NCBI RefSeq assembly: GCF_029893365.1
Contig: NZ_JARXUZ010000001.1
Coordinates: 1,612,001 to 1,676,000, forward strand
From: Cryobacterium sp. CG_9.6
GTDB lineage: Bacteria > Actinomycetota > Actinomycetes > Actinomycetales > Microbacteriaceae
Length of the DNA stretch: 64,000 nucleotides
Reading direction: 5' to 3'
How positions within the stretch are numbered: the first letter of the stretch is position 1; every line of letters begins with the position of its first letter. The notes under the pieces are model-generated. The model had not been told where the DNA came from. It ran no database searches and worked only from the letters and a program-made list of their open reading frames with translations. Below are positions 9,340 through 29,403 of the stretch, piece after piece. The translations under genes were made by a program, and so were the position numbers.

Positions 9340-10017
9340 TCACGGGCGGATATCGCCGCCTGAGCCCAAGTTCATGATTTGGCCGGTCATGCTGCCGGCG
9401 TTGGGACCGGCAAGATAGCTGATAGCAATGGCCATGCTCTGTGGGCTGATGGCCTCATCATCAGCGACCGCAACCTCGTTGACGGTGATGCCGCGCGGAC
9501 CCAAATCGCGCGAGAGCGTTTTCATGAGGGCAACGAGTGCTCCCTGCACCGCCGCGCTTGCGGTGGCCACCGGAAGATCGGCAGCGGCCCACGCCGAGCC
9601 CACCACGACGATTCGGCTATGTCCACTGCGGCTCAGAGCGGGGACGGCGGCGCGGATGAGCGCGAAGGGCGTGAAAAGGGCTTGGCTCACGTTGGCGAAC
9701 CAGTCCGTGGCCGGCGTCGCGACGAACCGTCCACGGGGCGGGGTGACGGCGCCGCAGACGAGCACGCTCAGAGAACCCAGCTGAAGCTCGACGCGGGCTA
9801 TGGCCGCTGCGAGATCGTCGGCAACGGAAGCGACCGAGCGGGGAATGACGAGTTCGGCTCCAGGAATTGGTTCACCAATGACCGCAACGCGTATGCCATC
9901 TTCGACGAGTCGGGCAACAACGTGAACGGCGACATCATGGTGAACCAGATCAACCACAGCCACGCGAGGAGGTAGGACTGACGCATGTGTTGGCGGGAGG
10001 CTGGGGGAGTGTGTCAT
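9340..10017 (-). CDS. SDR-fold protein with cofactor and catalytic motifs lost
   Basis: The protein has 225 residues. The second half (LSRDLGPRGITVNEVA, then YLAGPNAGSMTGQIMNLGSG) is plainly short-chain dehydrogenase, but the N-terminal TGxxxGxG motif is replaced by VVDLVHHDVAVH, NAG by CGAV, and the Tyr-xxx-Lys pair by a TASAAVQG segment with neither Tyr nor Lys. It should therefore bind no NAD(P) in the normal way and be inactive. The start overlaps the stop of the active SDR gene as TAATG (10015-10019), so the two are translationally coupled, as expected for subunits of one complex. Known precedent: BbsC/BbsD of anaerobic toluene degradation pair an inactive with an active SDR. Confidence 0.8.
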   Translation of the reverse strand: MTHSPSLPPTHASVLPPRVAVVDLVHHDVAVHVVARLVEDGIRVAVIGEPIPGAELVIPRSVASVADDLAAAIARVELQLGSLSVLVCGAVTPPRGRFVATPATDWFANVSQALFTPFALIRAAVPALSRSGHSRIVVVGSAWAAADLPVATASAAVQGALVALMKTLSRDLGPRGITVNEVAVADDEAISPQSMAIAISYLAGPNAGSMTGQIMNLGSGGDIRP

Positions 10018-10739
10018 TAGATGGTGGCTCCGGAGTTGGGGGACACAAGTTGGCCTGTCATCGTGTTACCTGCTTCGAGAAGGAAGAGGACCGCGCCAGC
10101 GATTTCGTCGGGCCGCACCAGCCGCGGGATCGGAAGCGTCTTGAGAAAGCTGTCGGCCCGCCACGGAGATTCAGCGGAAAGCATGGCAGTGTCAGCGGCG
10201 CCGGGCGCAACAGAGTTGACGAAAATACCGTCGGTCAGAAGCTCTCGGGCGAGGCTTCGGGAAAAGCCGACGATGGCACCCTTTGTGGCCGCGTAGTGCG
10301 CGTCTCCTTGGCTGCCGCCGACGCCAAGGTCGGACGAGATTGTGACGATGGCTCCGGCTCCACGTTTAAGCATCACAGGAACGACTGCCGAACAGGCGTT
10401 GATGGTGCCTCCGATATTCACTGCAAGCATGCGGTCCCAGGCGCTATCCGTGATGTCGTCGATGAGAAGTTCTTCGTAAATTCCAGCGACGGTCACCAGC
10501 GCTGCGATGGGCCCGAGGTCGCGCTCAACCAGCTGAACGGCATCCGCTACCGCGGCCGCATCAGTGACGTCGACCTGGATAGAGAGCGTGGTTGCGCAGG
10601 GTGTGAGATCCAGGCCAGCAACAACCCAGCCGGCGACGCCCAGAGCCTTTGCAATGGCGGCACCGAGACCGCGGGCGGCGCCCGTAACGAGGGCGACGGG
10701 TCGCTGGGTGCTCGGGTTGGGACGGTCAGTGTTGCTCAT
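10017..10739 (-). CDS. Short-chain dehydrogenase/reductase (active type)
   Basis: The protein has 240 residues from ATG 10739 (an in-frame extension to 10787 is possible). All motifs of classical SDRs are present: TGAARGLG for cofactor binding, an AG in VTVAGIYEE, Ser-Ser in VTISSD, and Tyr-Ala-Ala-Thr-Lys as the catalytic pair, with SVAPGAADTAM after it. Asp in the second strand (GLDLTP) favours NAD(H). The substrate is unknown. It overlaps the NTF2-like gene upstream by 14 bases and the inactive SDR downstream by one base, so permease, NTF2-like protein and the SDR pair form one operon read from about 12750 leftwards. Confidence 0.88.
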   Translation of the reverse strand: MSNTDRPNPSTQRPVALVTGAARGLGAAIAKALGVAGWVVAGLDLTPCATTLSIQVDVTDAAAVADAVQLVERDLGPIAALVTVAGIYEELLIDDITDSAWDRMLAVNIGGTINACSAVVPVMLKRGAGAIVTISSDLGVGGSQGDAHYAATKGAIVGFSRSLARELLTDGIFVNSVAPGAADTAMLSAESPWRADSFLKTLPIPRLVRPDEIAGAVLFLLEAGNTMTGQLVSPNSGATI

Positions 10740-11175
10740 TGTGGGTCCTTGCTGACAAGTGTTCGTGCACGCAGATCCACGCACCATTTCTCTGTTCCAG
10801 AATGATGGATTCCCGCTCTAGCAGTGTGCTGGTGACGCCATCGATGGCTACGAGAGTGTCGACGTCATGTGTAAAGACGGCCGTGTGGCCGAACATCTGT
10901 ATGTGGCGGTTGTCGGAGGTGCAGGCGAGCACCCGGAAGCTGTTCACGTGTTCCCAGGATGCCCAAAGTCGCTCGTAGGCAGATCGGGATTCGAGTCGAT
11001 GGGGATGGGTGTAAAAGAGGAACGTGGCGTCGGGGGCGAAACCTGCGAAGTAGTCATCTCGGCGGTGATGTCCGAAATTGTCGATGATGTCGTCGACGGC
11101 CGCCAGTGCTTCGAGGCTGCCATCGGTCGGGACGGCCGTGCACTCGCTGACCAGGCGGCCGTCGGCGGAGATCAC
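10726..11175 (-). CDS. NTF2-like (SnoaL-type) protein
   Basis: The protein has 149 residues with the cone-shaped NTF2-like fold suggested by the opening helix LAAVDDIIDNFGHHRRDDYFAGFAPDATFLFYT, a central FRVLACTSDNRHIQMFG strand and the C-terminal WICVHEHLSA strand typical of the SnoaL-like DUF4440 group. Members are small hydrolases, isomerases or binding proteins; two His residues in the last strand and the acidic DD pair could form a polar pocket. ATGA overlap with the upstream permease gene (11172-11175) and overlap with the SDR gene downstream place it inside the operon, so it probably acts on the imported compound or its product. Confidence 0.75.
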   Translation of the reverse strand: MISADGRLVSECTAVPTDGSLEALAAVDDIIDNFGHHRRDDYFAGFAPDATFLFYTHPHRLESRSAYERLWASWEHVNSFRVLACTSDNRHIQMFGHTAVFTHDVDTLVAIDGVTSTLLERESIILEQRNGAWICVHEHLSARTHNEQH

Positions 11176-12749
11176 AGGTGGCGGCGTGCGGCGGCTTTGG
11201 CGTGAACCTTGGCTGCCGTGGAGGAGTGGTCGGTCACGATCTCCTGAAGCGGAACGTCTGAGGCAGAGACGAGGCGCGGGCCATTGTCACCGAAGACAGA
11301 GCGCGGCTCGGGAAAGATCCAGAGGGCGCCGAGGTAGAGCACGGCGGCGGACACAACCGCGGTGACGAGACTCAGGTCCATGCCACCGCCGAGAGCGCTG
11401 AGGGGCCCGACAATCACAGGTGGGAAATTGGCGAACATCAGGCCGATGGCCGCGGCACCGATCCAGGCCACCATTCCGCGCCAGTTGACCCCGGAGCTGA
11501 ACCAGTAGGCTCCACCGATTTCACCTTTGTTGAACACCTGCAAGTCGCGAGGGCTGAAGTGGCCCCGTCGAACGATGAAGCCGATGGCCATGATGACCAT
11601 CCACGGAGTCGTGGTCACGATGATTGCACCGATGAACGCACTCACGGCTCCGAGCAGATCGAAGAAAAGTCGCCCGGTCAAGATGAACAGGAAGGCAAGA
11701 ACGCCGATGGCGATGGTGGCTTGCACTCGGCTAAATCGGGGAACGACTGAGGAAAAGTCGAGGCCTGTTCCGTAGAGCGAGGTCGTTCCAGTGGATAGTC
11801 CGCCGATGAAGGCGACGGCCATCAAGAGCACGGCGTACCAGATGGGCGAGGCCTGAATGAGAGCGAAGACGTAGTCGGCCTGTCCGGCAACGATTGTGGC
11901 GGTTGCAACACCGAACAGGAACGGAATGAGCGTCAGGGCCTGGCCGAGGAATGTGGCGAGGAGGAGTTTGCGAGCGGGCGTCGATTCGGGGATGTACCGC
12001 GACCAGTCGCCGAGGAAGGCGCCGAAGGAGATGGGGTTGGACATCACGATGAGCGCGGATGCGACAAAGGTGGGCCAGAAGCCTCCGAGGGCGAGGGCAT
12101 CCGGCCCCGGGTTGTAGCTGGCGTCAAAGGTGCCGGAAAACGCGACAAACGCGAGCAGGATGAGCGCAGTGTTGGCAATAACGGCGGTCTTGTTCACCAG
12201 CAGCATGAACTGGAACCCGTAGATGACGACGACGATGACAAGCACGCCGATGACAGCGTAGACAACTGTGCGCAGGCCAACGGAATCCTCAACGCCGGCG
12301 AGTCGGGTGAGTGCGCCGACGAGGGCGTCTCCGCTCACCCAAACGGAAATGGAGTAGAAGGCAATGGCCGTGAGCAGGGAGAGGAAGGAGCCGACGACCC
12401 TGCCGCGCACTCCAAAGAATGCTCCGGATGAAACGGCGTTGTTGGTGCCCGTGCGGGGTCCGAACAAGCCCATCGGCATGAGGAACACCGTTCCGACAAG
12501 TACGCCGGCTACGACGGAAACAACGGCCTGCCAGAAGGAGAGCCCGAGAACGATGGGGAATGTGCCGAGGAGAACAGTGGCAAACGTGTTGGCGCCACCG
12601 AACTGAATGCGCAGCAGGTCCAGCCAGGTCGATGTGCGATCCGGGTGGGGAATCGTATCGATACCGTGGGTTTCAATGTCCGTAACCTTGGGGCGCGCGT
12701 TCAAGACGGCGGTGGGAGTGTCGCTGTCGCGATGTTCGTCGATGGTCAT
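11172..12749 (-). CDS. NCS1-family permease (purine/cytosine/hydantoin type)
   Basis: The protein has 525 residues with about 12 membrane helices. The LLRIQFGGANTFATVLLG stretch in helix 1, the FGPRTGTNNAV loop and SNPISFGAFLGDWSRYIP are typical of nucleobase:cation symporter-1 carriers, which import purines, pyrimidines, allantoin or hydantoins with a cation. The C-terminal tail is charged and cytoplasmic. It is the first gene of the operon 12749-9340 and is divergent from the cyclase gene 12861, with the shared region carrying an inverted repeat at 12801-12816. In this setting I infer uptake of a small N-heterocycle that the neighbouring hydrolases then open and strip of nitrogen. Confidence 0.88.
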   Translation of the reverse strand: MTIDEHRDSDTPTAVLNARPKVTDIETHGIDTIPHPDRTSTWLDLLRIQFGGANTFATVLLGTFPIVLGLSFWQAVVSVVAGVLVGTVFLMPMGLFGPRTGTNNAVSSGAFFGVRGRVVGSFLSLLTAIAFYSISVWVSGDALVGALTRLAGVEDSVGLRTVVYAVIGVLVIVVVIYGFQFMLLVNKTAVIANTALILLAFVAFSGTFDASYNPGPDALALGGFWPTFVASALIVMSNPISFGAFLGDWSRYIPESTPARKLLLATFLGQALTLIPFLFGVATATIVAGQADYVFALIQASPIWYAVLLMAVAFIGGLSTGTTSLYGTGLDFSSVVPRFSRVQATIAIGVLAFLFILTGRLFFDLLGAVSAFIGAIIVTTTPWMVIMAIGFIVRRGHFSPRDLQVFNKGEIGGAYWFSSGVNWRGMVAWIGAAAIGLMFANFPPVIVGPLSALGGGMDLSLVTAVVSAAVLYLGALWIFPEPRSVFGDNGPRLVSASDVPLQEIVTDHSSTAAKVHAKAAARRHL

Positions 12750-12800
12750 TCTCGAAACCTTGTCTGTAAGGTCGGACGGGGATTCCTCGAGTGCGGAGGA

Positions 12801-12816
12801 TTATGGAAAACCATAA
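12801..12816. promoter_or_regulatory. Inverted repeat in the divergent NCS1/cyclase promoter region
   Basis: TTATGG-AAAA-CCATAA is a perfect 6+6 inverted repeat, 52 bases from the permease start and 45 from the cyclase start. Its position makes it a candidate operator for both transcripts. It does not match the repeat at 16014-16032 in front of the XRE-cupin gene, so the regulator remains unassigned. Confidence 0.4.
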
Positions 12817-12860
12817 CCTTTTCCCAGACTTAATTGCTACGTGTGAAAGAATAATTTACT

Positions 12861-13529
12861 ATGACGAAACATTTGATTGTCGACCTGTCCGTTCCTGTGA
12901 ATGCGGAAACGCAGGTTTATCCGGGCGACCCCGTGCTGGCTTTTTCCGTGCACAGCACGATTGCGCGTGACGGTTTCAACCTGCTCAACGTGTCAATGGG
13001 TTCGCAGACCGGCACCCACGTGGATGCGCCTTTTCACTTCAGTGCAACAGGGCTGAAGATTGATGAGCTGCCACTCGACCGGTTCGTGGGCCGTGGAGTG
13101 ATCGTTGATGCTCGTTCTGCTGGCGCCCGCGGTCGTATCGGTTGGGACATGATCGCCCCGGTGGCTGATCAGATAGAACCAGGATCGATCGTCATTCTGC
13201 ACACGGGATGGAGCGCGCATTTCGGTACTGCTGAGTACTTTGAGAATCCATTTCTCGATGCGGATGCCTGCCGCCGGCTGATTGAAATGGGGGTGCGCAC
13301 CTTTGCGATCGACGCCATCAACATTGATGAAACGCCTGATGAGTCTCACCCCGGTGAAGAGTTTCCCGTTCATCACCTCATTGCCGACGTTGACGGGGTG
13401 ATCTGTGAAAATATGACCAATGTGGCCGCGATCGACTTTGAGGCGCCGTTCATCTCGCTTCTGCCGATTGCTTTTGCGGCGGCTGACGGGGCTCCGATTC
13501 GAGCCGTGGCCATGCGACTCGGAGCCTAA
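12861..13529 (+). CDS. Cyclase-family metal-dependent amide hydrolase (KynB/isatin-hydrolase-like)
   Basis: The protein has 222 residues. It shows the family core GTHVDAPFH at 51-59 (His53, Asp55, His59 as metal ligands) and the YPGDP N-terminal motif. Canonical members read HxGTHxD; here the first His is Gln49, so one ligand may be changed or supplied elsewhere. Known members are kynurenine formamidase and isatin hydrolase, both of which hydrolyse an aryl-linked or cyclic amide with Mn or Zn. It is divergent from the NCS1 permease. In this cluster I infer ring opening of a cyclic amide. No clear Shine-Dalgarno sequence precedes the ATG. Confidence 0.82.
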   Translation: MTKHLIVDLSVPVNAETQVYPGDPVLAFSVHSTIARDGFNLLNVSMGSQTGTHVDAPFHFSATGLKIDELPLDRFVGRGVIVDARSAGARGRIGWDMIAPVADQIEPGSIVILHTGWSAHFGTAEYFENPFLDADACRRLIEMGVRTFAIDAINIDETPDESHPGEEFPVHHLIADVDGVICENMTNVAAIDFEAPFISLLPIAFAAADGAPIRAVAMRLGA

Positions 13530-13555
13530 TTATGCATCGTGTCGGCAGACGAAGT

Positions 13556-13590
13556 GCCGGGTGCGCACCATGGCTTGGTTCGCACCCGGC
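13556..13590. terminator. Hairpin between convergent cyclase and M20 hydrolase genes
   Basis: GCCGGGTGCG (13556-13565) pairs with CGCACCCGGC (13581-13590) with a 15-base loop. It lies between two convergent stop codons, so it probably ends both transcripts, although no long T run follows on either side. Confidence 0.55.
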
Positions 13591-13600
13591 TGTTCGTGAC

Positions 13601-14905
13601 TCAGACCGCGGCGGAGGCCTCGAGAATGCTGAGCGACTCGGGTAGCTCGCCGAGCACAAGCCGGGTGACCACGTGCGTGAACACATTGAGGCCGGCCACA
13701 AGATCCTCGTCTGACGTGAATTCACGCTCGTTGTGCGAAATGCCGTCGGCCGCACTGGGAACGAAGAGCATAACCGTAGGCACGATCTCCTTCATGTTGG
13801 TGGCATCGTGGCCAGCGAGCGTGAGTACGCGGTCGTTGGAATAGCCCAGGAGTTCGGCCGAGCTGCGTGTGAGCTCGATTCCGCTTTCCAAGAAGGGACC
13901 GCTCTCCCAGATGCTCGCACCGATCTCGTCGATGCTCACACGACACTCTGCCTCAATCCGGGCGATCGCGGCTTGGAGGTGGGAGTAGGCCTCTGCGAGA
14001 AGCCCTGATTCTCGAGCGCGAATATCGATCAGAAAACGCACCTCGCGGGCCACTGTGACGGGGGAGTTGGGGGCCACATACAGTTCGCTGATTGAGCTAT
14101 GCACAGCCTCGTCATCGAAGTGGGCCAGGAGGTCGTTCACCGCCACGATAACCTTGGCCGCTCCGAGCAGGGCGTCGCGTCGGTCCTTCATCCGCGTTGC
14201 GCCGGAGTGAGACTGCTCTCCACGCACAACGATCTCGTACTTGCGGGCCGACCAGGTGGATGAGACCATCCCGATGGTCGTGTTGGCGTCATCCATGCTG
14301 CGGCCCTGCTCGATGTGAATCTCCGAGTAGGCCGCGATCGGCGGAGGGGTGAAGGTGCCAACGCCGTTGATGGCGTGCAGAGCTTCGGCAACAGAGACAC
14401 CCTGAGCGTCCACGGTGGCCAGCGTCTTTTCCAGGTCAAGCAGACCGGTAAACACACCGCTGCCCATCATGCTCGGCTTGAAGCGGCACCCTTCTTCATT
14501 GAACCAATCCACAACTGCCAGATTGAATGTGGGGGCAGCGCCGCTCGCGGCCAACTGCTCGCGCGTGCGGAGTGACGCGTGAGCGGCGGCAAGAACACCG
14601 TAGGCGCCGTCGAATCGTCCGGCGAGCGGCTGGCTGTCGAGGTGCGAGCCGAGCAGAATATATGGAGCCCCAGGAACGAGTTCCAGCAGCCCAAAGACAT
14701 TGCCGATGGGGTCCATGTCAACGGTGAAGCCATTGGAGCGCAGGAGCTCGGCGAACCAGTCTCGGGTCTGTCCGTCTGCCGGAGTGGCTGCTTGGCGATC
14801 TACACCGTGGTTGTCGGTGGAACCGAAGCCAGACATCGTGACGAAGTCATCAAGAAACGCCGCGTCGTCAGCCGACGACGGGCGCACGAACTCAAGCCCA
14901 GTCAC
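13601..14905 (-). CDS. M20-family N-carbamoyl-amino-acid/allantoate amidohydrolase
   Basis: The protein has 434 residues from GTG 14905, chosen because GGAG lies 8 bases upstream and the start overlaps the end of the preceding gene. Metal ligands of the two-zinc site are visible: His88 (GSHLDS), Asp99 (GRFDGAYG), Glu137-Glu138 (FNEEG), His197 (IHIEQG) and a late His in ISHNEREF. A second GHDATNMK motif fits the HyuC/AllC group. These enzymes hydrolyse an N-carbamoyl or allantoate group to an amine plus CO2 and ammonia. The overlap with the guanidino-hydrolase gene suggests that it takes the ureido product of that enzyme. Confidence 0.85.
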   Translation of the reverse strand: MTGLEFVRPSSADDAAFLDDFVTMSGFGSTDNHGVDRQAATPADGQTRDWFAELLRSNGFTVDMDPIGNVFGLLELVPGAPYILLGSHLDSQPLAGRFDGAYGVLAAAHASLRTREQLAASGAAPTFNLAVVDWFNEEGCRFKPSMMGSGVFTGLLDLEKTLATVDAQGVSVAEALHAINGVGTFTPPPIAAYSEIHIEQGRSMDDANTTIGMVSSTWSARKYEIVVRGEQSHSGATRMKDRRDALLGAAKVIVAVNDLLAHFDDEAVHSSISELYVAPNSPVTVAREVRFLIDIRARESGLLAEAYSHLQAAIARIEAECRVSIDEIGASIWESGPFLESGIELTRSSAELLGYSNDRVLTLAGHDATNMKEIVPTVMLFVPSAADGISHNEREFTSDEDLVAGLNVFTHVVTRLVLGELPESLSILEASAAV

Positions 14906-15902
14906 GCTGCAGCTCCATCGTTGAGCAGTGGAGTCCGCCACCGTTTTTGAGAATCTCCCGGAACGGAATGGCCGTGATGTCGACCCCGGCCTCATCACGC
15001 AGCATCGAGGCGGTTAGGGGCAAGTGATCGGGCATGATGACCTTTCTCTTATCAAGGACGAGCATATTGCAGGCCCATTCTTCGCGGCTGTCCACTTCGA
15101 GGGTTTCGATGCCCAAGTCCCAGAGGGCAGTCATGTAATCGTAGGGTGCCAGACGAGGGTTGACGAGGGCGAGGTTGTCGTCGATCATGACCGAGCACAT
15201 GTCGAGGTGAATGAGGTATCCGGGAAGATTGACCTGCTTGAGTGTGATGCCCTGCTCTTCGAGAATATTCGCCAATTGCCGGTAACCGTCGGGGTTGCAC
15301 CGCACGGATGTTCCGAAAAAGGCCAAATCTTTGCGCACCTTCACGAAGCTGCCACCTTCGACGAGGCCAGCGCCGGTAATGGTCCCGAGAATGGGCAGCC
15401 CGGCGGCGGCCACGGTCTGGGTAATGGACTGTTCCTCGCCGCGTCGCATCCGCGGGGCCAGGCGACCGATGATCGCGCCGCCTGGGATCGTGACGAGCGG
15501 GTCTCGGGTGTAGACGGCCTTGGTGAAAGTGCTGCCGAGTTCGGGAGCGAAGACCACCTCGACTCCGTTCGCCGTGAGTGTGTCCACGAAGCCCTGGTAC
15601 TGCGTGTCGAGGAGTGGCATGTTGGGGGCGTCGGGGCCAGTCCAGTACCAACGGCGATCGGGGTCAACCAGTGCGCCGAGCTCTTCATTCCAGGCGTCTT
15701 CAGTGATTTTTCCCAGCCCACGGCTCGGTCGTCGCATGAGCACTGATCGAAGTTTTCCCACCTCATCGGCGGCGCCCCAGCGGCGCCCCCACACCGACTC
15801 CAGTTCGCCGTGTTCAGAGAATGGGGGTGTGGCTTCTGGGCCCATCAGACGGTGGAATTTGCCATCTGACAGTTCCATGGTCGAGTCGCTGATTATGGTC
15901 AT
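14892..15902 (-). CDS. DDAH/arginine-deiminase-superfamily guanidino hydrolase
   Basis: The protein has 336 residues from the ATG at 15902 (AAAGGA upstream). The pentein (amidinotransferase/deiminase) fold is indicated by EVGKLRSVLMRRPS near the start, a VEGGSFVKVRKDLAFFGTS block, catalytic-His segment YLIHLDMCSVM, and a terminal Cys at about 326 in GGGLHCSTMEL. A His-Cys pair in this order is that of arginine deiminase, dimethylarginine hydrolase and glycine amidinotransferase. Lack of the amidinotransferase acceptor context and its overlap with a carbamoylase gene favour a hydrolase that converts a guanidino group into a ureido group. It is divergent from the XRE-cupin regulator gene. Confidence 0.82.
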   Translation of the reverse strand: MTIISDSTMELSDGKFHRLMGPEATPPFSEHGELESVWGRRWGAADEVGKLRSVLMRRPSRGLGKITEDAWNEELGALVDPDRRWYWTGPDAPNMPLLDTQYQGFVDTLTANGVEVVFAPELGSTFTKAVYTRDPLVTIPGGAIIGRLAPRMRRGEEQSITQTVAAAGLPILGTITGAGLVEGGSFVKVRKDLAFFGTSVRCNPDGYRQLANILEEQGITLKQVNLPGYLIHLDMCSVMIDDNLALVNPRLAPYDYMTALWDLGIETLEVDSREEWACNMLVLDKRKVIMPDHLPLTASMLRDEAGVDITAIPFREILKNGGGLHCSTMELQRDWA

Positions 15903-16013
15903 CTGAGTTGTCCTTTCGCGGGCTTCGCACTGTGCGCCCCGCCATTGCAGCGCGTGAGGTCTCGTCAACGCACGGTGCGCGTTCAGCGACGTGGTTGTTT
16001 GTAGAGCATATTA

Positions 16014-16032
16014 TGTTGCTTCTTCTGCAACA
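16014..16032. promoter_or_regulatory. Inverted repeat between guanidino hydrolase and regulator genes
   Basis: TGTTGC and GCAACA, separated by 7 bases, form a 6+6 inverted repeat 112 bases from the hydrolase start and 55 bases before the regulator ATG. It is a candidate self-operator of the XRE-cupin protein. No copy was found by eye in front of the NCS1 operon. Confidence 0.4.
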
Positions 16033-16086
16033 AGCGAATTGACCTGTCAGAATGGGAGTGTCAAATCTGCGTTCTCAGGAGAGATC

Positions 16087-16671
16087 ATGCGCCCGATGCC
16101 CGTCGAACTCTCTAACCACCGAGCAGCAATTGGGAGCCGCTTGCGCGCCGCCCGCCGTGCGCAGCAGTTTACGATCGACCAGCTTGCTGTTGCTACGGGG
16201 CTCACCAAAGGTTTTATTAGTCGCATCGAGCGAGATATGACCTCGCCGAGCGTGGCTACTCTTGTGGCGCTCTGTGAGGTGTTGAACGTGAGCATCGGTG
16301 ACCTGTTCATGTCCTCTGTCGGTGAACTCGTCACTGCAGAGAACGCACCCCACATCAATTTGGGCGGGATCGGAGCCAACGAGATCCTGCTCACGCCGCG
16401 TCGTGAGGGGCGGGTTCAAGTCGTGCGGTCGACGGTTGTTCCTGGAGGTACGGGAGGCGACAAGCTTTACACCGTGAACTCGCCAGTGGATGTTGTTCAC
16501 GTTTTATCGGGGTCGCTCACGGTGCAGTTCAGCGATCGAGTATGGCAACTCGCACCGGGCGATTCGCTGACTTTCGATGGTCGCGAACCGCACACCTGGG
16601 TTGGCGACCTTGCTGTTGAAACAGAACTCATCTGGGTTCTGGCCCCGGCCGCCTGGGAGGGCTCGGTCTAA
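16087..16671 (+). CDS. XRE-cupin transcriptional regulator
   Basis: The protein has 194 residues from ATG 16087, preceded by AGGAGAG. An XRE helix-turn-helix occupies about residues 10-65 (LRAARRAQQFTIDQLAVATGLTKGFISRIER), and a cupin sensor domain about 105-190 (VVHVLSGSLTVQFSDRVWQLAPGDSLTFDG). Regulators of this build control catabolic genes for amines, amino acids and sugars and usually sense the substrate with the cupin barrel. It is divergent from the guanidino-hydrolase/M20 pair, and the ThDP-ABC operon begins 322 bases downstream. It is the best candidate for the specific regulator of the whole 9.3-22.3 kb region. Confidence 0.88.
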   Translation: MRPMPVELSNHRAAIGSRLRAARRAQQFTIDQLAVATGLTKGFISRIERDMTSPSVATLVALCEVLNVSIGDLFMSSVGELVTAENAPHINLGGIGANEILLTPRREGRVQVVRSTVVPGGTGGDKLYTVNSPVDVVHVLSGSLTVQFSDRVWQLAPGDSLTFDGREPHTWVGDLAVETELIWVLAPAAWEGSV

Positions 16672-16993: not shown

Positions 16994-18610
16994 ATGACCG
17001 AAATTCAACGCACCGGCGGAGACCTCGCCATTGAAACGCTTGAGGCGCTGGGTGCCCGCACCGTATTTGGTATCCCTGGCCAGCACGCCCTCGGCCTTTT
17101 CGATGCCCTCAGCCGGGGTCATCTCGACTTCGTGAGTTCCCGGGTGGAAAACAATGCGGCGTTCGCTGCCGATGGTTTTTCCCGCGCCACCGGCGAGGTT
17201 GGTGTCCTGTTCCTGTCCGCCGGCCCGGGCGCGTTGACCGCCCTAGCCGGGCTTCAGGAGGCACACGCAACAGGAGTCCCGATCGTCGTTATCGCCAGTC
17301 AGATTCCCCGAGTCGGCCTCGGTGGTGCCCGTAAGGGGCTTCTGCACCAGCTCGACGACCAGCGTGACGCCGCCGCCCAGGTGAGCAAGGACACGTGGCT
17401 CGTGCGCACCCCCGGGCAGATTCCATCGGCGATTGCTGATGCGTGGACGCTGGCAGTATCGGCACCCGCTGGTCCGGTGTGGGTCGAAATTCCCCAAGAC
17501 GTCCTCTTGGAATCGACCGATCTGCCGCCGGTCGTTGACATACATGCGGCTGCTTTTGCCCGTTCACCGCGCGCTGAACTAATTTCTGAAGCTGTGCGTT
17601 TGATTGATGGGGCGAGAAACCCCGTGATTCTCGTGGGCGGCGGCGCGCGGCGGTCCGGGGCGGAGCGTGAACTGATCGCCCTCGCAGAACGAATTCAGGC
17701 TCCAGTTGTGAGTACCGTCGGCGGTAAGGGGGTGTTCCCGTGGGCGCACGAACTGAGTGCGCAGTCCTGGGTTGAAGACAGGTACACGACTGAGCTACTA
17801 GAGAATGCAGACGTACTCGTTATCGTGGGCACATCGCTCGGTGAGATCACGAGCAACTACTTCACCTTCGCCCCCACCGGTCGCTTGATCCAGATTGATG
17901 CAGAAGCTCGGGTTCTTGAGTCAAACCATCCGGCTTTGGGTATCCATGCCGATGCAGCACTGGCGCTTGGAGCTCTGGCCAATGCAGTGCAGCCGGCGCA
18001 GCGCCCGGAATCGTCGCGCACGGTGAGAACGTTGCTGCTCAATATAAAGGAGCGCCTGGATAGCCAAGACCTCGGATTAGAACGCGGCCTCCTGGCCGAC
18101 ATTCGGTCTGCAGTCCCGGATGATGCGGACACCTTCTGGGATATGACCATCGCTGGATACTGGGCCTGGTCTGCTTGGGATCCCAGACGCGGCGGCTTTC
18201 ACAGCGCCCAAGGAGCCGGAGGACTTGGCTTCGGCTTTCCAGCCGCACTCGGTGGGGCCGCGGGAACGGAGCGACACACATTCGCCGTCTCCGGCGATGG
18301 CGGCGCCATGTACTCCATCGCCGAGCTGGCCGCTGCACGGCAACACAACACCCCGGTGACGTGGCTCATCGTCGACGATGGCGGCTACGGAATCCTGCGG
18401 GAATACATGGTCGAAAGCTTCGGCCAGGCTACCGCCACCGAACTGGCCCGTCCCGATTTTGCTGCCCTCGCGGCGTCATTCGGCGTTCCTGCCTGGAATG
18501 CGACACCGCAAACGCTCGCAGCAGACCTCGCGGCGGCTTGGGCCACCGCCGGACCCACCGTGGTCGTGCTCAGCGCTCATCTCGCGCTCTTCGCACCCAC
18601 TCACCTCTAA
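16994..18610 (+). CDS. Thiamine-diphosphate-dependent enzyme (acetolactate synthase/benzoylformate decarboxylase family)
   Basis: The protein has 538 residues in the usual Pyr, central and PP domain order. The catalytic Glu52 lies in SSRVENNAAFAADG; the ThDP/Mg motif starts with SGDGG (433-437) and runs to DDGGYG (461-466), with Asp in place of the common Asn-containing end. The central domain VILVGGGARRSGAERE is degenerate at the FAD-type site. The family carboligates or decarboxylates 2-oxo acids; the precise substrate cannot be read from sequence. It is the first gene of an operon with a polar amino-acid ABC transporter and a D-2-hydroxyacid dehydrogenase, suggesting processing of an imported amino-acid-like compound through a 2-oxo acid. 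Confidence 0.85.
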   Translation: MTEIQRTGGDLAIETLEALGARTVFGIPGQHALGLFDALSRGHLDFVSSRVENNAAFAADGFSRATGEVGVLFLSAGPGALTALAGLQEAHATGVPIVVIASQIPRVGLGGARKGLLHQLDDQRDAAAQVSKDTWLVRTPGQIPSAIADAWTLAVSAPAGPVWVEIPQDVLLESTDLPPVVDIHAAAFARSPRAELISEAVRLIDGARNPVILVGGGARRSGAERELIALAERIQAPVVSTVGGKGVFPWAHELSAQSWVEDRYTTELLENADVLVIVGTSLGEITSNYFTFAPTGRLIQIDAEARVLESNHPALGIHADAALALGALANAVQPAQRPESSRTVRTLLLNIKERLDSQDLGLERGLLADIRSAVPDDADTFWDMTIAGYWAWSAWDPRRGGFHSAQGAGGLGFGFPAALGGAAGTERHTFAVSGDGGAMYSIAELAAARQHNTPVTWLIVDDGGYGILREYMVESFGQATATELARPDFAALAASFGVPAWNATPQTLAADLAAAWATAGPTVVVLSAHLALFAPTHL

Positions 18611-18681: not shown

Positions 18682-19614
18682 ATGTCGTCGTTCACTTCAC
18701 GCAGCGGATCAAAGATCCGTCCCAGTATCTCCGTTCTTGTCGCCGGTTTAGCGTCTGTCGCCTTACTGTCCGGCTGCGCCGCTGCTGCCGAACCTGCCGC
18801 CGCGCCAGCAGCAGATGCTGCGGTGAGTGCTGACAGCACTCTGTTCGACATGTTGCCCGCCGACATTCAGACCAGCAAGGTCATCAAGATTGGCACGGAG
18901 GCGATGTACGCGCCCTACGAGTACCTCGACACCGACGGCACCACCATCGTCGGGCTTGACCCGGACCTTGTGACCGCTCTGACCCAGCGACTCGGCGTCA
19001 CCTTCGAGCTCACCAACGCCGCCTTCGACGGACTTCTGCCCGCGCTCGACGCGAACCGGTTTGACATGCTGGCCGCCGGTTACACGAACACCGTCGAGCG
19101 TCAGGCGCAGTATGACTTCGTGAACTATTACAAGTCCAGCCAAGGCATTGTCGTAAAAGCAGGAAACCCGGAGAGCATCGTGACGATGGAGGACCTCTGC
19201 GGCCAGCCGGTGTCCGTTCTGAAGGCATCCGCTCAAGAGAGCATGCTCGTCGCCCTCAATGACGGGGAATGCGCCGCGAATAAGGTGGATATCGTTGCTC
19301 TGCCCGACAACCAAACCGCGTTCCTGCAGGTTCAGAGCGGCCGAGTCAATGCCCTGCTGGTGCAGGATGCCGTGGCTCGGTACAACATTTCCCAGCAGGG
19401 GGAGAACGGCACCTTTGAAGTGTCCAACACTGAGCTGATCACACCCACCCTCGTGGGCATGATGTTTCGCAAGGACTCCACCGAGCTGAGCGGCGCGATT
19501 CAAGCCGCACTCCAGTCGCTCATTGACGATGGTACCTACGCCGAGATCCTTGACATCCACACCCTCACCAGCGGCGCAGTCGATTCCGCCACCATCAACG
19601 GCGGAATCGAGTAA
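18682..19614 (+). CDS. Substrate-binding lipoprotein of polar amino-acid ABC transporter
   Basis: The protein has 310 residues. The start at 18682 follows CGGAG; the reading frame is open upstream but that part overlaps the previous gene. A lipoprotein signal peptide ends in LLSGC, followed by an Ala-rich linker. The family-3 solute-binding domain shows KVIKIGTEAMYAPYEYLD near residue 75, GLDPDLVTALTQRLG, and FDGLLPALDANRFDMLAAG, all typical of carriers for polar or charged amino acids. The conserved Arg for the ligand carboxylate in TNTVERQAQYDF is present. It sits 71 bases after the ThDP gene and 2 bases before the permease gene. Confidence 0.9.
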   Translation: MSSFTSRSGSKIRPSISVLVAGLASVALLSGCAAAAEPAAAPAADAAVSADSTLFDMLPADIQTSKVIKIGTEAMYAPYEYLDTDGTTIVGLDPDLVTALTQRLGVTFELTNAAFDGLLPALDANRFDMLAAGYTNTVERQAQYDFVNYYKSSQGIVVKAGNPESIVTMEDLCGQPVSVLKASAQESMLVALNDGECAANKVDIVALPDNQTAFLQVQSGRVNALLVQDAVARYNISQQGENGTFEVSNTELITPTLVGMMFRKDSTELSGAIQAALQSLIDDGTYAEILDIHTLTSGAVDSATINGGIE

Positions 19615-19616
19615 TC

Positions 19617-20540
19617 ATGTCTATCCACGAGACGGAGACCGGGACGCTGGAGGTGGCTTCACCTGCCATGCCTGGTCTCCGGGTCGTGCAAAACCGCAAA
19701 TACGGGCAGTGGATTTCTGGTGCCCTCGTTCTCGCAGTCCTTGTCGCATTCGTGAATACCATCGCTACGAACGAGTCGATCCGCTGGGAAGTGATCGCTC
19801 AATACCTGACCTACCCCACAATTTTGTCTGGCCTGTGGACGACTGTCTGGCTCACGGTAGTGAGTCTCGTCGTCGGCGTTATTGGCGGCATCCTGCTTGC
19901 CGTAATGCGCATGTCGAAAAATGTCGTGCTCTTCGCCGTCAGTGGGGCCTACATCTGGTTCTTCCGAGGCACGCCTCTGCTCGTTCAGCTGTTGCTTTGG
20001 TATAACTTGGCGCTATTCTTTCCGCGACTTGGCCTCGGTGCCTTGAGCGTCGACACCAACATGTTCATTACGCCGGTAATGGCAGCACTCCTCGCCCTGG
20101 CCTTGAACGAGGCGGCATATATGGCTGAAATTGTGCGCGGAGGTATTCTGGCCGTGCACCCCGGCCAAAAGGAAGCGGGATCGGCCCTCGGCATGCCTAA
20201 CGGAGCTGTCCTTCGGCGGATTGTCCTTCCTCAGGCAATGAAGGTGGTTATCCCGCCTGCAGGCAACGAGTTGATTACTCTGCTCAAAATGACCTCGCTG
20301 GTCGCCGTCATTGGTGCAGGTGACCTTCTGACAAATGCGCAATACATCGGAACGCGCGACTTCACCCCCATGGAGATGCTCCTCGTCGCGACCGTGTGGT
20401 ACCTGCTGCTGACGACCATTGCCACGTTCGGGCAGTACCTTCTCGAGAGGCGACTGATGCGCAGCAGCACACGGACGGCCCGGCGCCCGCTGCTTCGGCA
20501 GCTTCTTCGCAACCTCACCCCCGATCGCGTGCGCCCATGA
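19617..20540 (+). CDS. Polar amino-acid ABC transporter permease
   Basis: The protein has 307 residues with a hydrophobic segment near residues 33-52 and the HisM-type membrane domain at about 70-285. It begins with [24 protein letters not shown] and carries the [15 protein letters not shown] motif and the EAA loop ([29 protein letters not shown]) that docks to the ATPase. A single permease gene suggests a homodimer in the membrane. It follows the binding protein by 2 bases and overlaps the ATPase gene by ATGA. The C-terminal tail is Arg-rich and cytoplasmic. Confidence 0.92.
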
Positions 20541-21376
20541 GCGCCCAGAACGACGACAGGACACCGATTGTGACGAGTGAAGCAGCACGCAGCACCGCCC
20601 CGCAGGCTCAGGGTCAACTTATGGTTGATGCGGCGAACCTCTACAAGTCCTATGGGGCCGTTGATGTGCTCAGAAACGTGTCGCTGCAGGTGAAGGCTGG
20701 CGAAGTGACGTGTGTGCTCGGCCCGTCAGGCAGCGGAAAATCGACACTGCTGCGCTGCCTGAATCACCTCGAAAAACCCGATGCGGGCACGATCACCGTT
20801 GATGGTGCGCTCATCGGCTACCGCCGGAAAGGTGATGTTCTCCACGAGCTTGGGAACAAAGCTATTTCGCGTCAGCGCGAAGACTTGGGGATGGTCTTTC
20901 AGGGTTTCAACCTGTTCCCTCATATGACAGCGCTGCAGAACATCACGGAAGCTCCGGGTCGACTGCGCCGAGAGAGCTCGGCCGCGTTGCGCACCCGGGC
21001 CCAAGATCTCCTGACAAGGGTGGGTCTGGCAGATATGGGGGACCGGTACCCGAGCCAGCTCTCCGGTGGGCAGCAGCAGCGAGTGGCGATCGCACGGGCA
21101 CTGGCCATGCAGCCCAAGGTCATGTTGTTCGATGAGCCTACATCTGCCCTCGACCCGGAACTGGTCAGCGAAGTTCTCGATGTCATGCGAAGCCTCGCCG
21201 CATCCGGTGTCACGATGATCGTTGTCACGCACGAGATCGGATTTGCCCGAGAAGTGGCCGACAGCGTCGTGTTCATGGACCACGGCGTGATTGTTGAGGC
21301 GGGGCCGCCGGAGCAGGTCTTTGATGCCCCCGTTCACAATCGCACGAAAGCATTTTTGTCGCGTGTGCTCAAGTGA
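20537..21376 (+). CDS. Polar amino-acid ABC transporter ATPase
   Basis: The protein has 279 residues from ATG 20537, whose ATGA overlaps the permease stop. Walker [11 protein letters not shown]-loop [16 protein letters not shown], signature [15 protein letters not shown], Walker [15 protein letters not shown] and switch His in [15 protein letters not shown] are all intact. The HMTALQNI and [10 protein letters not shown] details are those of the GlnQ/HisP subfamily. It couples ATP hydrolysis to import with the two preceding gene products. A short extra N-terminal stretch of about 25 residues precedes the domain. The downstream dehydrogenase starts inside its stop codon (GTGA). Confidence 0.93.
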
Positions 21377-22332
21377 ATTCGCGTCAGACGATTGTTGTCC
21401 TTGACCCTTTCGCATCCGTTGACCGCATTGAGGCGATATTGGGGAAGGATGCAGAGCATTTTGAGGTTGTGGCTGCCGTAACTCTGCCTACCTCGGGCGA
21501 TGTGTTTGCTGTGCTGCTCGGTCCGGAAACACCCATAACGGGTTCTGAAGTGGCGAACCTGACCGGGTTGCGGATCGTGTCCGTAAGCTCGACCGGGTTC
21601 GACCACGTTCCGGTGCACGCCGTGACGGCAGCTGGCGCCTGGGTGAGCACAGCCGCGGGCTATTGCACCGACGAGGTAGCCGAACATGCGTTGGCGCTGA
21701 TCCTTGGCGGATTACGTGGGGTCCCCGCCCTAGACGCGAGTGTCCGCCGCGGAAAATGGGACGTGACTTTGAGCAGGCCCAAACGCATTCGTGGCGCTGT
21801 TGTTGGGTTGGTGGGGTTCGGGCGGATCGCACAGGCCGTGGCCGGACTACTTCGCCCGCTCGGTGTGGTCGTGAAGGCCTACGACCCGTGGATCCCAGAC
21901 GATGTCTTCGAGCGATTCGGCGTCTCCAGAGCACAATCCATTGAGACTGCACTTCAGAATGCGGATGCCGTGAGTCTGCACGTGCCACTGATCCCTGAAA
22001 CTGTGCACCTGATTGATTCCACCAGGATGGCAATACTGCGCCGGGGAACGTTCTTAGTCAATGTCGCTCGGGGTTCCCTCATTGACACGGATGCTGTCTG
22101 TGACGCAATCGAGAGCGGGCAATTGTCGGGCGCGGCCCTCGACGTTTTCCAGGAAGAACCGCTGCCAATGGACGCTCGTGTTCGGCAGATCGCGAGGGTG
22201 CTTCTCAGCCCGCACGGAGCTTGGTACTCCGACGAAGCGGAGGAGCGCCTGTTCACCATGGCGACCGAATCGATTCTGGATGTTTTCCACGGTCGGACAC
22301 CGGCTGGCGCGGTTGCCGCCCCCGCGATCTAG
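21373..22332 (+). CDS. D-2-hydroxyacid dehydrogenase family protein
   Basis: The protein has 319 residues starting at GTG 21373, which overlaps the ATPase stop as GTGA. NAD-binding [16 protein letters not shown] lies at about 140-155. The catalytic triad is visible as Arg in NVARGSLID, Glu in DVFQEEPLP and His in LSPHGAWYS. The segment [12 protein letters not shown] and the [13 protein letters not shown] helix are typical of the phosphoglycerate/2-hydroxyacid dehydrogenase group. It reduces a 2-oxo acid to a D-2-hydroxy acid or the reverse. As last gene of the ThDP-ABC operon it probably handles the 2-oxo acid linked to the ThDP enzyme. Confidence 0.88.
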
Positions 22333-25916: not shown

Positions 25917-26846
25917 CTACCGGTTCATGACGGAGAGTGGAAGGTACGCAGTCACGATCCAATTGGGCGTGTCGACCACCTCACTGATCTTGAGATCCAC
26001 AACCACGGAGGACAGAATATAGGCCTCGTGCGGCTCTATCTTGTAGGTAAAGCACATGTGGTCGATCATGTGGCGAAGTGCTGCCCGTGCGGCCTCGAGA
26101 AGATCCGGCCCCACCCCTGTGGTGGCGTAATACCCCTGATCTTCGATTCCCAGCCGCAATGGTCCCGAGGTTTGAAACTGCGGAGACGGAATGGACCGCC
26201 CCTTGTGCAGGGTGACTTTCAGCGTCCCGCTCAAGGGCGCCTCGATGGCCGTCACGCAGACTTCACCATCGCCCTGAGCGGCGTGCGGGTCACCGAACAT
26301 GAGTCGCGCGCCGGGCAGGCCGACCGGGAGAAAAATTTTGGTTCCCACGACCAGATCACGGATGTCCATATTGCCGCCAAAGTTGCCAGGAGGCATGACA
26401 GGCAAGGGTTCCGCAGTTGCCGGAGTACACGCCAAAACCCCGAGAAAGGGACGAAGGGGAATCGTCGCCACATCCAGAAACTCGGTCGTGCGACCGTTCG
26501 ACAGATCCCACTTGTAGATGAACGGATCAGTAAAATCGTCTGGCAAAAGACCAGCGCCGGGCCTGCTGGCGGTGAACCCCCATCCCAGCGGGCTGAATTC
26601 GAGGGGTTCCACTTCGAGTACATCACCGGGCTCCGCACCGTCCACCATGATGGGCCCCCGCAGCGGATAGCTGCGGGAGGCGTCACGATCGGGGATGGGA
26701 TCACCGTTGCGGTAGTGCTCGAGTTGTCCGTCCCCGGCATCCAAGACATCAAAGCTGATGGTGTCGCCGCTGCGGATGCCCAGAACCGGCTCGTGCTGCG
26801 GGGTCCACAGGCGGTTGTAAATGTCGGGGACCTCGTGGTGGGCCAT
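25917..26846 (-). CDS. Acetamidase/formamidase family hydrolase
   Basis: The protein has 309 residues from ATG 26846 with GGAAAG upstream; a TTG start at 26876 is less likely. The FmdA/AmdA family is shown by the HYRNGDPIPDRD region, GPIMVDGAEPGDVLEVE, PGNFGGNMDIRDL and FGDPHAAQGDGEVCVTAIE. Family members split short aliphatic amides to the acid plus ammonia, with a metal held by conserved Asp/His/Glu. The gene is divergent from katG (322 bases). It might share nitrogen metabolism with the hydrolases further left, but no direct link is visible. Confidence 0.88.
   Translation of the reverse strand: MAHHEVPDIYNRLWTPQHEPVLGIRSGDTISFDVLDAGDGQLEHYRNGDPIPDRDASRSYPLRGPIMVDGAEPGDVLEVEPLEFSPLGWGFTASRPGAGLLPDDFTDPFIYKWDLSNGRTTEFLDVATIPLRPFLGVLACTPATAEPLPVMPPGNFGGNMDIRDLVVGTKIFLPVGLPGARLMFGDPHAAQGDGEVCVTAIEAPLSGTLKVTLHKGRSIPSPQFQTSGPLRLGIEDQGYYATTGVGPDLLEAARAALRHMIDHMCFTYKIEPHEAYILSSVVVDLKISEVVDTPNWIVTAYLPLSVMNR

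Positions 26847-29403
<2,557 letters not shown>

Follow-up and report, generated by a model that had tools for sequence, protein, structure and literature searches.

What does a bacterium degrade with a pentein-fold hydrolase and an M20-family amidohydrolase whose genes overlap and lie beside a permease gene and a regulator gene? The question is raised by a locus in Cryobacterium sp. CG_9.6, and the window analysed here is the whole stretch of 64,000 nucleotides of contig NZ_JARXUZ010000001.1 (positions 1,612,001 to 1,676,000, from a genome of 3.54 Mb) that carries it. An earlier note on this DNA had placed a catabolic cluster at 9340..16671 and had suggested that a guanidino compound is turned into a ureido compound by the pentein and then into an amine by the M20 enzyme. 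All eight genes that it listed were found where it had put them when they were scanned with Pfam and curated models. The gene content of the cluster therefore stood, whereas its boundaries did not, since the conserved unit runs on to the right as far as 22332. We think it rather probable that this cluster imports and degrades an arginine-family acid with an omega-guanidino group and a 2-oxo or 2-hydroxy group and that the pentein and the M20 enzyme work there in place of a ureohydrolase. The guanidine group would probably be stripped from arginine-like acids by two hydrolytic steps.

The pentein and the M20 amidohydrolase

The pentein gene (14892-15902, minus strand) codes for a guanidino-modifying hydrolase, predicted to be an omega-guanidino acid deiminase, that matches the Pfam ADI and DDAH families (PF02274 and PF19420) and not the agmatine deiminase family (PF04371) or any other. 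Its AlphaFold2 model (mean pLDDT 93.2) has the alpha/beta propeller fold of the superfamily, and its sequence has the catalytic Cys, His and Glu and the guanidino-binding Asp residues. Among the 50 fold matches listed, all at 15-23% identity, are DDAH (3rhy, E 2.4e-18), arginine deiminase (2a9g), the 2-nitroimidazole nitrohydrolase NnhA (9azg) and glycine amidinotransferase (AGAT), and in sequence and profile searches DDAH ranked highest, followed by NnhA, arginine deiminase and glycine amidinotransferase. The window pentein shares its fold and its catalytic Cys-His and acidic residues with arginine deiminase, DDAH and glycine amidinotransferase but is only 15-23% identical to them, and it falls far under the cut-offs of the curated models for arginine deiminase ArcA (44.9 against 489.1) and for DDAH (72.4 against 450, 68 against 340, and 36.2 against 300). 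NnhA (PMC11659421) has the same fold and the same Cys/His/Glu/Asp set and can be aligned over most of the length, but it is 18-20% identical, and of the R132-D133 pair, which does not vary in the family of the window pentein, it is missing the Asp. In the aligned relatives D133 and H231 are kept in 53 of 53 and E181, D233 and C325 in 52 of 53. The H231-x-D233 motif resembles H278/D280 of arginine deiminase, compared by motif and not residue by residue and with the numbers taken from PDB titles, and this suggests that the pentein may hydrolyse an unsubstituted guanidino group. The closest named relative is that of Cryobacterium sp. MLB-32 (93% identity), and deposited records call this family merely 'arginine deiminase family protein'.

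The M20 gene (13601-14905, minus strand, with an inferred GTG start) overlaps the pentein gene by 14 bases with the starts used here. Its product is a predicted N-carbamoyl amino acid (ureido acid) hydrolase because it passes the hydantoinase/carbamoylase family model TIGR01879 (262.6, cut-off 204) and the subfamily model NF006772 for 'allantoate amidohydrolase' (429.3, cut-off 424); it scores 161.3 against the 597.75 that the equivalog model for allantoate deiminase AllC, TIGR03176, demands. When the window protein was aligned with 16 relatives from the clade-A pentein loci described below, the metal-ligand and substrate positions were kept in all 17. N-carbamoylputrescine amidase, by comparison, is a decarbamoylase of the nitrilase type and not of the M20 type.

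Co-inheritance of the pentein and M20 genes

One contig scan gave 294 relatives of the pentein, and the best 80 were taken for neighbourhood counts and split by rank into clade A (17 loci, L031-L047, pentein 63-93% identical), clade B (5 loci, all Nonomuraea), clade C (4 loci), and clade D (54 loci, 38-42%). All open reading frames (ORFs) of at least 100 aa in the fetched DNA were searched with BLAST, and a gene was counted at 100 bits or more with half of the query aligned; several loci are contigs that stop early and so the misses are upper bounds. The M20 gene is present in 16 of the 17 clade-A loci, and the sole miss, L031, is a contig that stops 14 bases past the pentein gene. It adjoins the pentein gene in most of these loci and lies about 6 kb off in the same direction in Pseudoclavibacter. 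In clade C it is present in two of four loci and in clade D in two of 54, and the difference between clades A and D is marked (Fisher 8e-13, kinship ignored). In a pentein tree of 53 rows, the 14 rows of the group that includes the window form one clade (100/99); each comes from a locus linked to M20 or from close kin of such a locus, and the Nonomuraea rows fall outside the clade. The order of steps that the earlier note had proposed, from guanidino to ureido to amine by the pentein and then the M20 enzyme, is supported by this linkage.

Three other rows or candidates from the pentein searches deserve mention. Genome G136 has a second pentein copy, L019, which has an M20 gene 3.8 kb away and stands beside Nonomuraea in the tree. 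L104, from a record titled Exiguobacterium profundum metagenome-assembled genome (MAG), groups with Rhodobacter-type rows and is likely mislabelled or mis-binned. An archaeal gene of the pentein family on a Haladaptatus salinisoli plasmid (L023, 7992-8843) lies near spermidine-type ATP-binding cassette (ABC) transporter, aminotransferase and nitrilase-type genes; it was considered as a parallel case with a nitrilase-type hydrolase and was dropped because the catalytic Cys is absent from its aligned row.

The genes to the right of 16671, which had been overlooked, are better conserved partners of the pentein than those to the left of 13600. First among them is a thiamine diphosphate (ThDP)-dependent 2-oxo-acid decarboxylase (16994-18610, plus strand, with ThDP enzyme domains), whose predicted substrate is a guanidino-2-oxo acid. 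It has a homologue in 16 of the 17 clade-A loci, the miss being L032, where 3.1 kb are available on that side. It is followed on the same strand by the three genes of an ABC importer of the polar amino acid type, namely, a solute-binding lipoprotein (18682-19614; Pfam SBP_bac_3, matched on a longer ORF), a permease (19617-20540; PF00528, with HEQRo_perm_3TM over its cut-off) and an ATPase (20537-21376, start inferred; PF00005), and by a D-isomer-specific 2-hydroxyacid dehydrogenase (21373-22332; PF00389/PF02826). An ABC ATPase of any type occurs in 15 of the 17 clade-A loci, with an importer of the polar-amino-acid type in some and of the SBP_bac_8 type in others, and a homologue of the dehydrogenase, 32-40% identical, in 12. 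A homologue of the XRE regulator occurs in nine and a ureohydrolase in five. The decarboxylase is found in none of the clade-B and clade-C loci and in two of the 54 of clade D, with the ThDP enzyme of L099, which is of another type, left out.

Exchange with a ureohydrolase

The decarboxylase was searched for across the order, in 396 genomes, and all 34 neighbourhoods that were positive at E <= 1e-80, those of 31 fetched loci, G029, G136 and the window, were examined. In 31 of the 34 genomes a ureohydrolase of the guanidinobutyrase/guanidinopropionase type lies near the decarboxylase: 30 of the 31 fetched loci have it in one stretch with the decarboxylase (adjacent in 29 and 1.9 kb off in G131), and it adjoins the decarboxylase in G029. 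Of the 31 fetched loci, 30 have an XRE homologue as well. Two of the 34, the window genome (G000) and G136, have the pentein and M20 genes instead, and the last, G262, is a 5.2-kb contig that stops in the decarboxylase. A direct search for the pentein in the 31 ureohydrolase genomes, G262, and the congeners G010 and G015 found it in none of these 34 at E <= 1e-15, and the same query does give matches in other genome searches of this analysis. Conversely, the sole PF00491 match in the window genome has 85 bits, against 319-323 for the ureohydrolases in the clusters of G010, G015 and G029, and is not a guanidinobutyrase of this type.

In the congeners G010 and G015 an NTF2-NCS1 pair is divergent from a block in the order cyclase-XRE-binding protein-permease-ATPase-ureohydrolase-decarboxylase, with neither pentein nor M20 gene found near it. 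The ureohydrolase version of the cluster thus keeps NCS1, cyclase, NTF2, XRE and ABC genes, which bears out the view of the locus as one catabolic unit with its own regulator. Their decarboxylases are just 32-34% identical to that of the window. The exchange is also seen within genus g44, where G224 has the pentein and M20 genes and G131 the ureohydrolase, with decarboxylases of different subtype. The G015 ureohydrolase passes agmatinase-family cut-offs, its best solved relatives are guanidino-acid enzymes (3-guanidinopropionase, guanidinobutyrase and proclavaminate amidinohydrolase), and the other cluster ureohydrolases are 63-70% identical to it. Since the pentein and M20 genes stand beside this decarboxylase where other genomes have a ureohydrolase of the guanidino-acid type, they most likely do the same net job, from guanidino to amine. 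The most likely explanation of these arrangements, drawn from gene content and homology, is that the pentein and M20 enzymes replace the ureohydrolase in the catabolism of an omega-guanidino acid.

The substrate and the proposed route

The decarboxylase, the ABC importer and the 2-hydroxyacid dehydrogenase in the unit point to a guanidino 2-oxo or 2-hydroxy acid. The solute-binding protein has matches of the lysine/arginine/ornithine type, all under cut-offs, and the ATPase is EhuA/GlnQ-like, under equivalog cut-offs. The model for 2-ketoarginine (5-guanidino-2-oxopentanoate) decarboxylase, NF005712, which has a cut-off of 500, is passed by the ThDP enzymes of L068 (712, with a pentein) and L135 (517.7, with a ureohydrolase); the scores of L039 (489), L027 (448.4), L110 (390), the window (333.7) and G029 (316.7) are below it. 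The window enzyme reaches 354.5 on the model of an unnamed subfamily, whose cut-off is 571. In L068 and L099 a GlcD-like FAD oxidase stands where other loci have the NAD-type dehydrogenase, and this suggests a 2-hydroxy acid as the entry compound. As to the end product, the pentein cluster of Pseudactinotalea (L027 and L046, which are the same genome) and that of a MAG of Bosea (L099) each have beside them a 4-aminobutyrate (GABA) aminotransferase over its cut-off. The succinate-semialdehyde dehydrogenase (SSADH) that adjoins it passes its cut-off in L099, and homologues of both enzymes adjoin the ureohydrolase clusters L171 and L172. GABA is pointed to by these neighbours, and the window genome has a GABA aminotransferase outside the cluster (634.3, cut-off 506.65).

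From the genes, their intact active-site positions, their co-inheritance and the exchange with the ureohydrolase we infer the substrates and the order of the steps as follows. The ABC importer would take up an omega-guanidino 2-hydroxy or 2-oxo acid, and the D-2-hydroxyacid dehydrogenase would oxidize the former to the 2-oxo acid. The ThDP enzyme would decarboxylate the 2-oxo acid to a guanidino aldehyde, which an aldehyde dehydrogenase encoded elsewhere would convert to a guanidino acid, most likely 4-guanidinobutyrate. The pentein would then hydrolyse the guanidino acid to the ureido acid and NH3, and the M20 enzyme would free the amine, most likely GABA, from the ureido acid together with CO2 and NH3. 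4-Guanidinobutyrate, degraded by the pair by way of N-carbamoyl-GABA, is probably the compound concerned, being the simplest choice. The pair would stand in for the guanidinobutyrase-type ureohydrolase of related clusters, and urea would be avoided.

The proposed route is a variation on a known arginine-catabolic pathway with the guanidine step changed. In the arginine transaminase/oxidase route, as set out in PMC2242806 and PMC7268258, 2-ketoarginine goes to 4-guanidinobutyrate and on to GABA and succinate, and guanidinobutyrase removes the guanidine group with release of urea; PMC11271267 cites such an enzyme from Arthrobacter sp. KUJ 8602. Both routes have a 2-oxo acid stage, guanidino acid intermediates and removal of the guanidine group, but the window has the pentein and M20 enzymes, and entry seems to be by an ABC importer and a 2-hydroxyacid dehydrogenase. 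Agmatine deiminase and N-carbamoylputrescine amidase (PMC6447857) also form a deiminase and decarbamoylase sequence from guanidino to ureido to amine, but the deiminase is of another pentein branch and the substrate is an amine there and an acid here. Among the titles and abstract beginnings listed in searches of an open-access library, no description of a 4-guanidinobutyrate deiminase was found, which is weak evidence of novelty. It is possible, although we think it doubtful as a whole, that there is a full urea-free route for arginine-derived guanidino acids, in which guanidinobutyrase is replaced by an exchangeable cassette of two enzymes, a new deiminase for 4-guanidinobutyrate (or a guanidino-2-oxo acid) and an amidohydrolase for N-carbamoyl-GABA. 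The route would start from a D-2-hydroxy acid, for instance argininic acid, or in Cryobacterium from the lactam of that acid, which NCS1 would import and the cyclase would open.

Points against the proposal and alternative explanations

Several observations weigh against an omega-guanidino acid route with the pentein and M20 enzymes in place of the ureohydrolase. The two systems are not always exclusive, since all five Pseudoclavibacter loci carry the pentein, the M20 gene and, downstream of the M20 gene, a ureohydrolase 66% identical to that of G015. Only two of the eight cluster ThDP enzymes scanned reach the 2-ketoarginine cut-off, the one in the window not being among them; L099 has an enzyme of another type (PRK07586), and L110 one that fits the unnamed subfamily. 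The 2-hydroxyacid dehydrogenase is a weak match, a GABA aminotransferase is found in just one of the 17 clade-A loci, and the dehydrogenase beside the one in L027 is under the SSADH cut-off (535.8 against 646). Among the scanned ORFs of the window cluster there is no aminotransferase or aldehyde dehydrogenase, and the genome was not searched for an arginine:pyruvate transaminase. In the wider family, that is, in clade D, the M20 gene is rarely within reach of the pentein. M20 relatives at 49-57% identity also sit without a pentein nearby, and their neighbours are an Amidohydro_3 enzyme and another ThDP enzyme, or an amidase, or an ArgE-like deacylase. Two such relatives, 55-56% identical, in L138 (G013) and L025 (the plasmid of Arthrobacter sp. 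StoSoilB13), lie in a different cluster with a major facilitator superfamily (MFS) transporter, a ThDP enzyme of the PRK08199 type, an Amidohydro_3 enzyme and, in L025, an aldehyde dehydrogenase.

A further point against the proposal is that in all five Nonomuraea loci the pentein, 56-59% identical, is in a urease operon without an M20 or decarboxylase gene. This raises the alternative that the pentein is an amidinohydrolase, which would turn a guanidino acid into the amine and urea by way of an amidino-cysteine such as amidinotransferases form in the first half of their reaction, and that the M20 enzyme acts on some other amide, for instance one connected with the cyclase. Besides the operon shared with urease in Nonomuraea, the fold is also close to that of amidinotransferases, and the pentein occupies the place that a urea-releasing type of ureohydrolase has in other genomes. 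On the other hand, the M20 enzyme belongs to the carbamoylase/allantoate family, and urease is scarce where the pentein and M20 genes are found. Urease alpha was found in none of the 16 genomes of the genus searched, that of the window included, and in three of 19 pentein genomes of clade A against 15 of 33 ureohydrolase genomes (Fisher 0.038, kinship ignored). The 19 are the genomes of the 17 clade-A loci, G136 and the window, with Pseudoclavibacter, which has both enzymes, counted here; three genomes whose sole urease match was near E 1e-4 were counted as urease-free, and the comparison is confounded by kinship and by draft assemblies (the L032 genome is a 2.0-Mb MAG). The scarcity of urease in clade-A genomes agrees, if weakly, with a urea-free route and is an argument against urea release by the penteins of this clade, and we regard that alternative as unlikely. 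The substrate of the Nonomuraea cluster (L048-L052) is possibly guanidine or another urea-yielding compound; there the pentein lies between a transporter named by clustering as MFS-type and the urease genes, with a gene for a PucR-type regulator nearby. Urease alpha is also near the pentein in eight of the 54 clade-D loci. In clade D, mainly in L066-L108 (Roseomonas type), the neighbours of the pentein include an ABC importer and a homologue of class II aldolase, the latter in 14 of the 54 loci; together with weak matches to 2-hydroxyacid dehydrogenase they suggest that the substrate in this lineage is a hydroxylated guanidino acid.

Arginine itself could be the substrate if the pentein gave citrulline, the M20 enzyme were a citrullinase, and the decarboxylase and dehydrogenase served something else. 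The arginine/lysine-type matches of the binding protein and the similarity of the pentein to arginine deiminase are in its favour, but the pentein is far from the score that the arginine deiminase model demands (see above), and the frequent decarboxylase partner and the ureohydrolase alternative would be left without explanation, which makes this improbable. A cyclic guanidine of the creatinine or iminohydantoin type, imported by NCS1, opened by the cyclase and then deiminated and decarbamoylated, as the earlier note had it, is least probable of all. In its favour, NCS1 and the cyclase lie within the cluster in the window and L032 and within its ureohydrolase version in G010 and G015. Against it, 16 of the 17 clade-A loci and all 31 decarboxylase loci gave no match to either, so that ring opening is not supported as the general logic, no Pfam match to a creatininase, creatinase or hydantoinase (including the dihydropyrimidinase type) was found among the 20 ORFs scanned between 8254 and 28287, and such a route would have no need of a 2-oxo-acid decarboxylase. 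An arginine-derived guanidino acid is more likely than a creatinine-like ring.

Accessory genes and regulation

A SnoaL_3/NTF2-like gene (10726-11175, minus strand; PF13474), an NCS1-family permease gene (11172-12749, minus strand; PF02133) and a cyclase-family metal hydrolase gene (12861-13529, plus strand; PF04199) are accessory to the unit. Each occurs in one of the 17 clade-A loci. The NTF2-like gene is paired with NCS1 and adjoins it also in L032, G010, G015 and G029. In G010 and G015 the NCS1 orthologues (83-85% identical) lie beside the cyclase, whose orthologues (70-73% identical) are the first gene of the ureohydrolase/decarboxylase block, with 2 bases between the cyclase end and the XRE start in G015. 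The two short-chain dehydrogenase/reductase (SDR) genes on the minus strand (9340-10017, and 10017-10739 with an inferred start) had been counted as members of the cluster, but they are outside the conserved unit and none of the 17 clade-A loci has them. In the shorter one, 9340-10017, neither the YxxxK catalytic pair usual in SDRs nor a clear glycine-rich motif was seen in the sequence, and its product may be non-catalytic.

The cluster has two divergent pairs, NCS1/cyclase and pentein/XRE. The regulator gene (16088-16671, plus strand, with a likely ATG start at 16088; HTH_3 and Cupin_2) is separated from the pentein gene by a gap that holds the inverted repeat TGTTGC-N7-GCAACA at 16014-16032. 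Similar inverted repeats are in the same gap in L031 and L032, and it is plausible that the repeat is an operator between the pentein and XRE genes. Rfam gave no match in the window, to a guanidine riboswitch or to anything else, and in seven loci of relatives, all five of Nonomuraea among them, its sole match was to a tRNA. A gene of the acetamidase/formamidase family (PF03069) lies at 25917-26876, 3.6 kb past the cluster.

Implications

If the proposal that the pentein and M20 enzymes replace the ureohydrolase is true, bacterial arginine catabolism would have an alternative to guanidinobutyrase in which all the guanidine nitrogen is recovered as ammonia without urease. It would also give a function to a family of penteins that has carried only a general label, and congeners with the swapped cassette would allow the two solutions to be compared directly.

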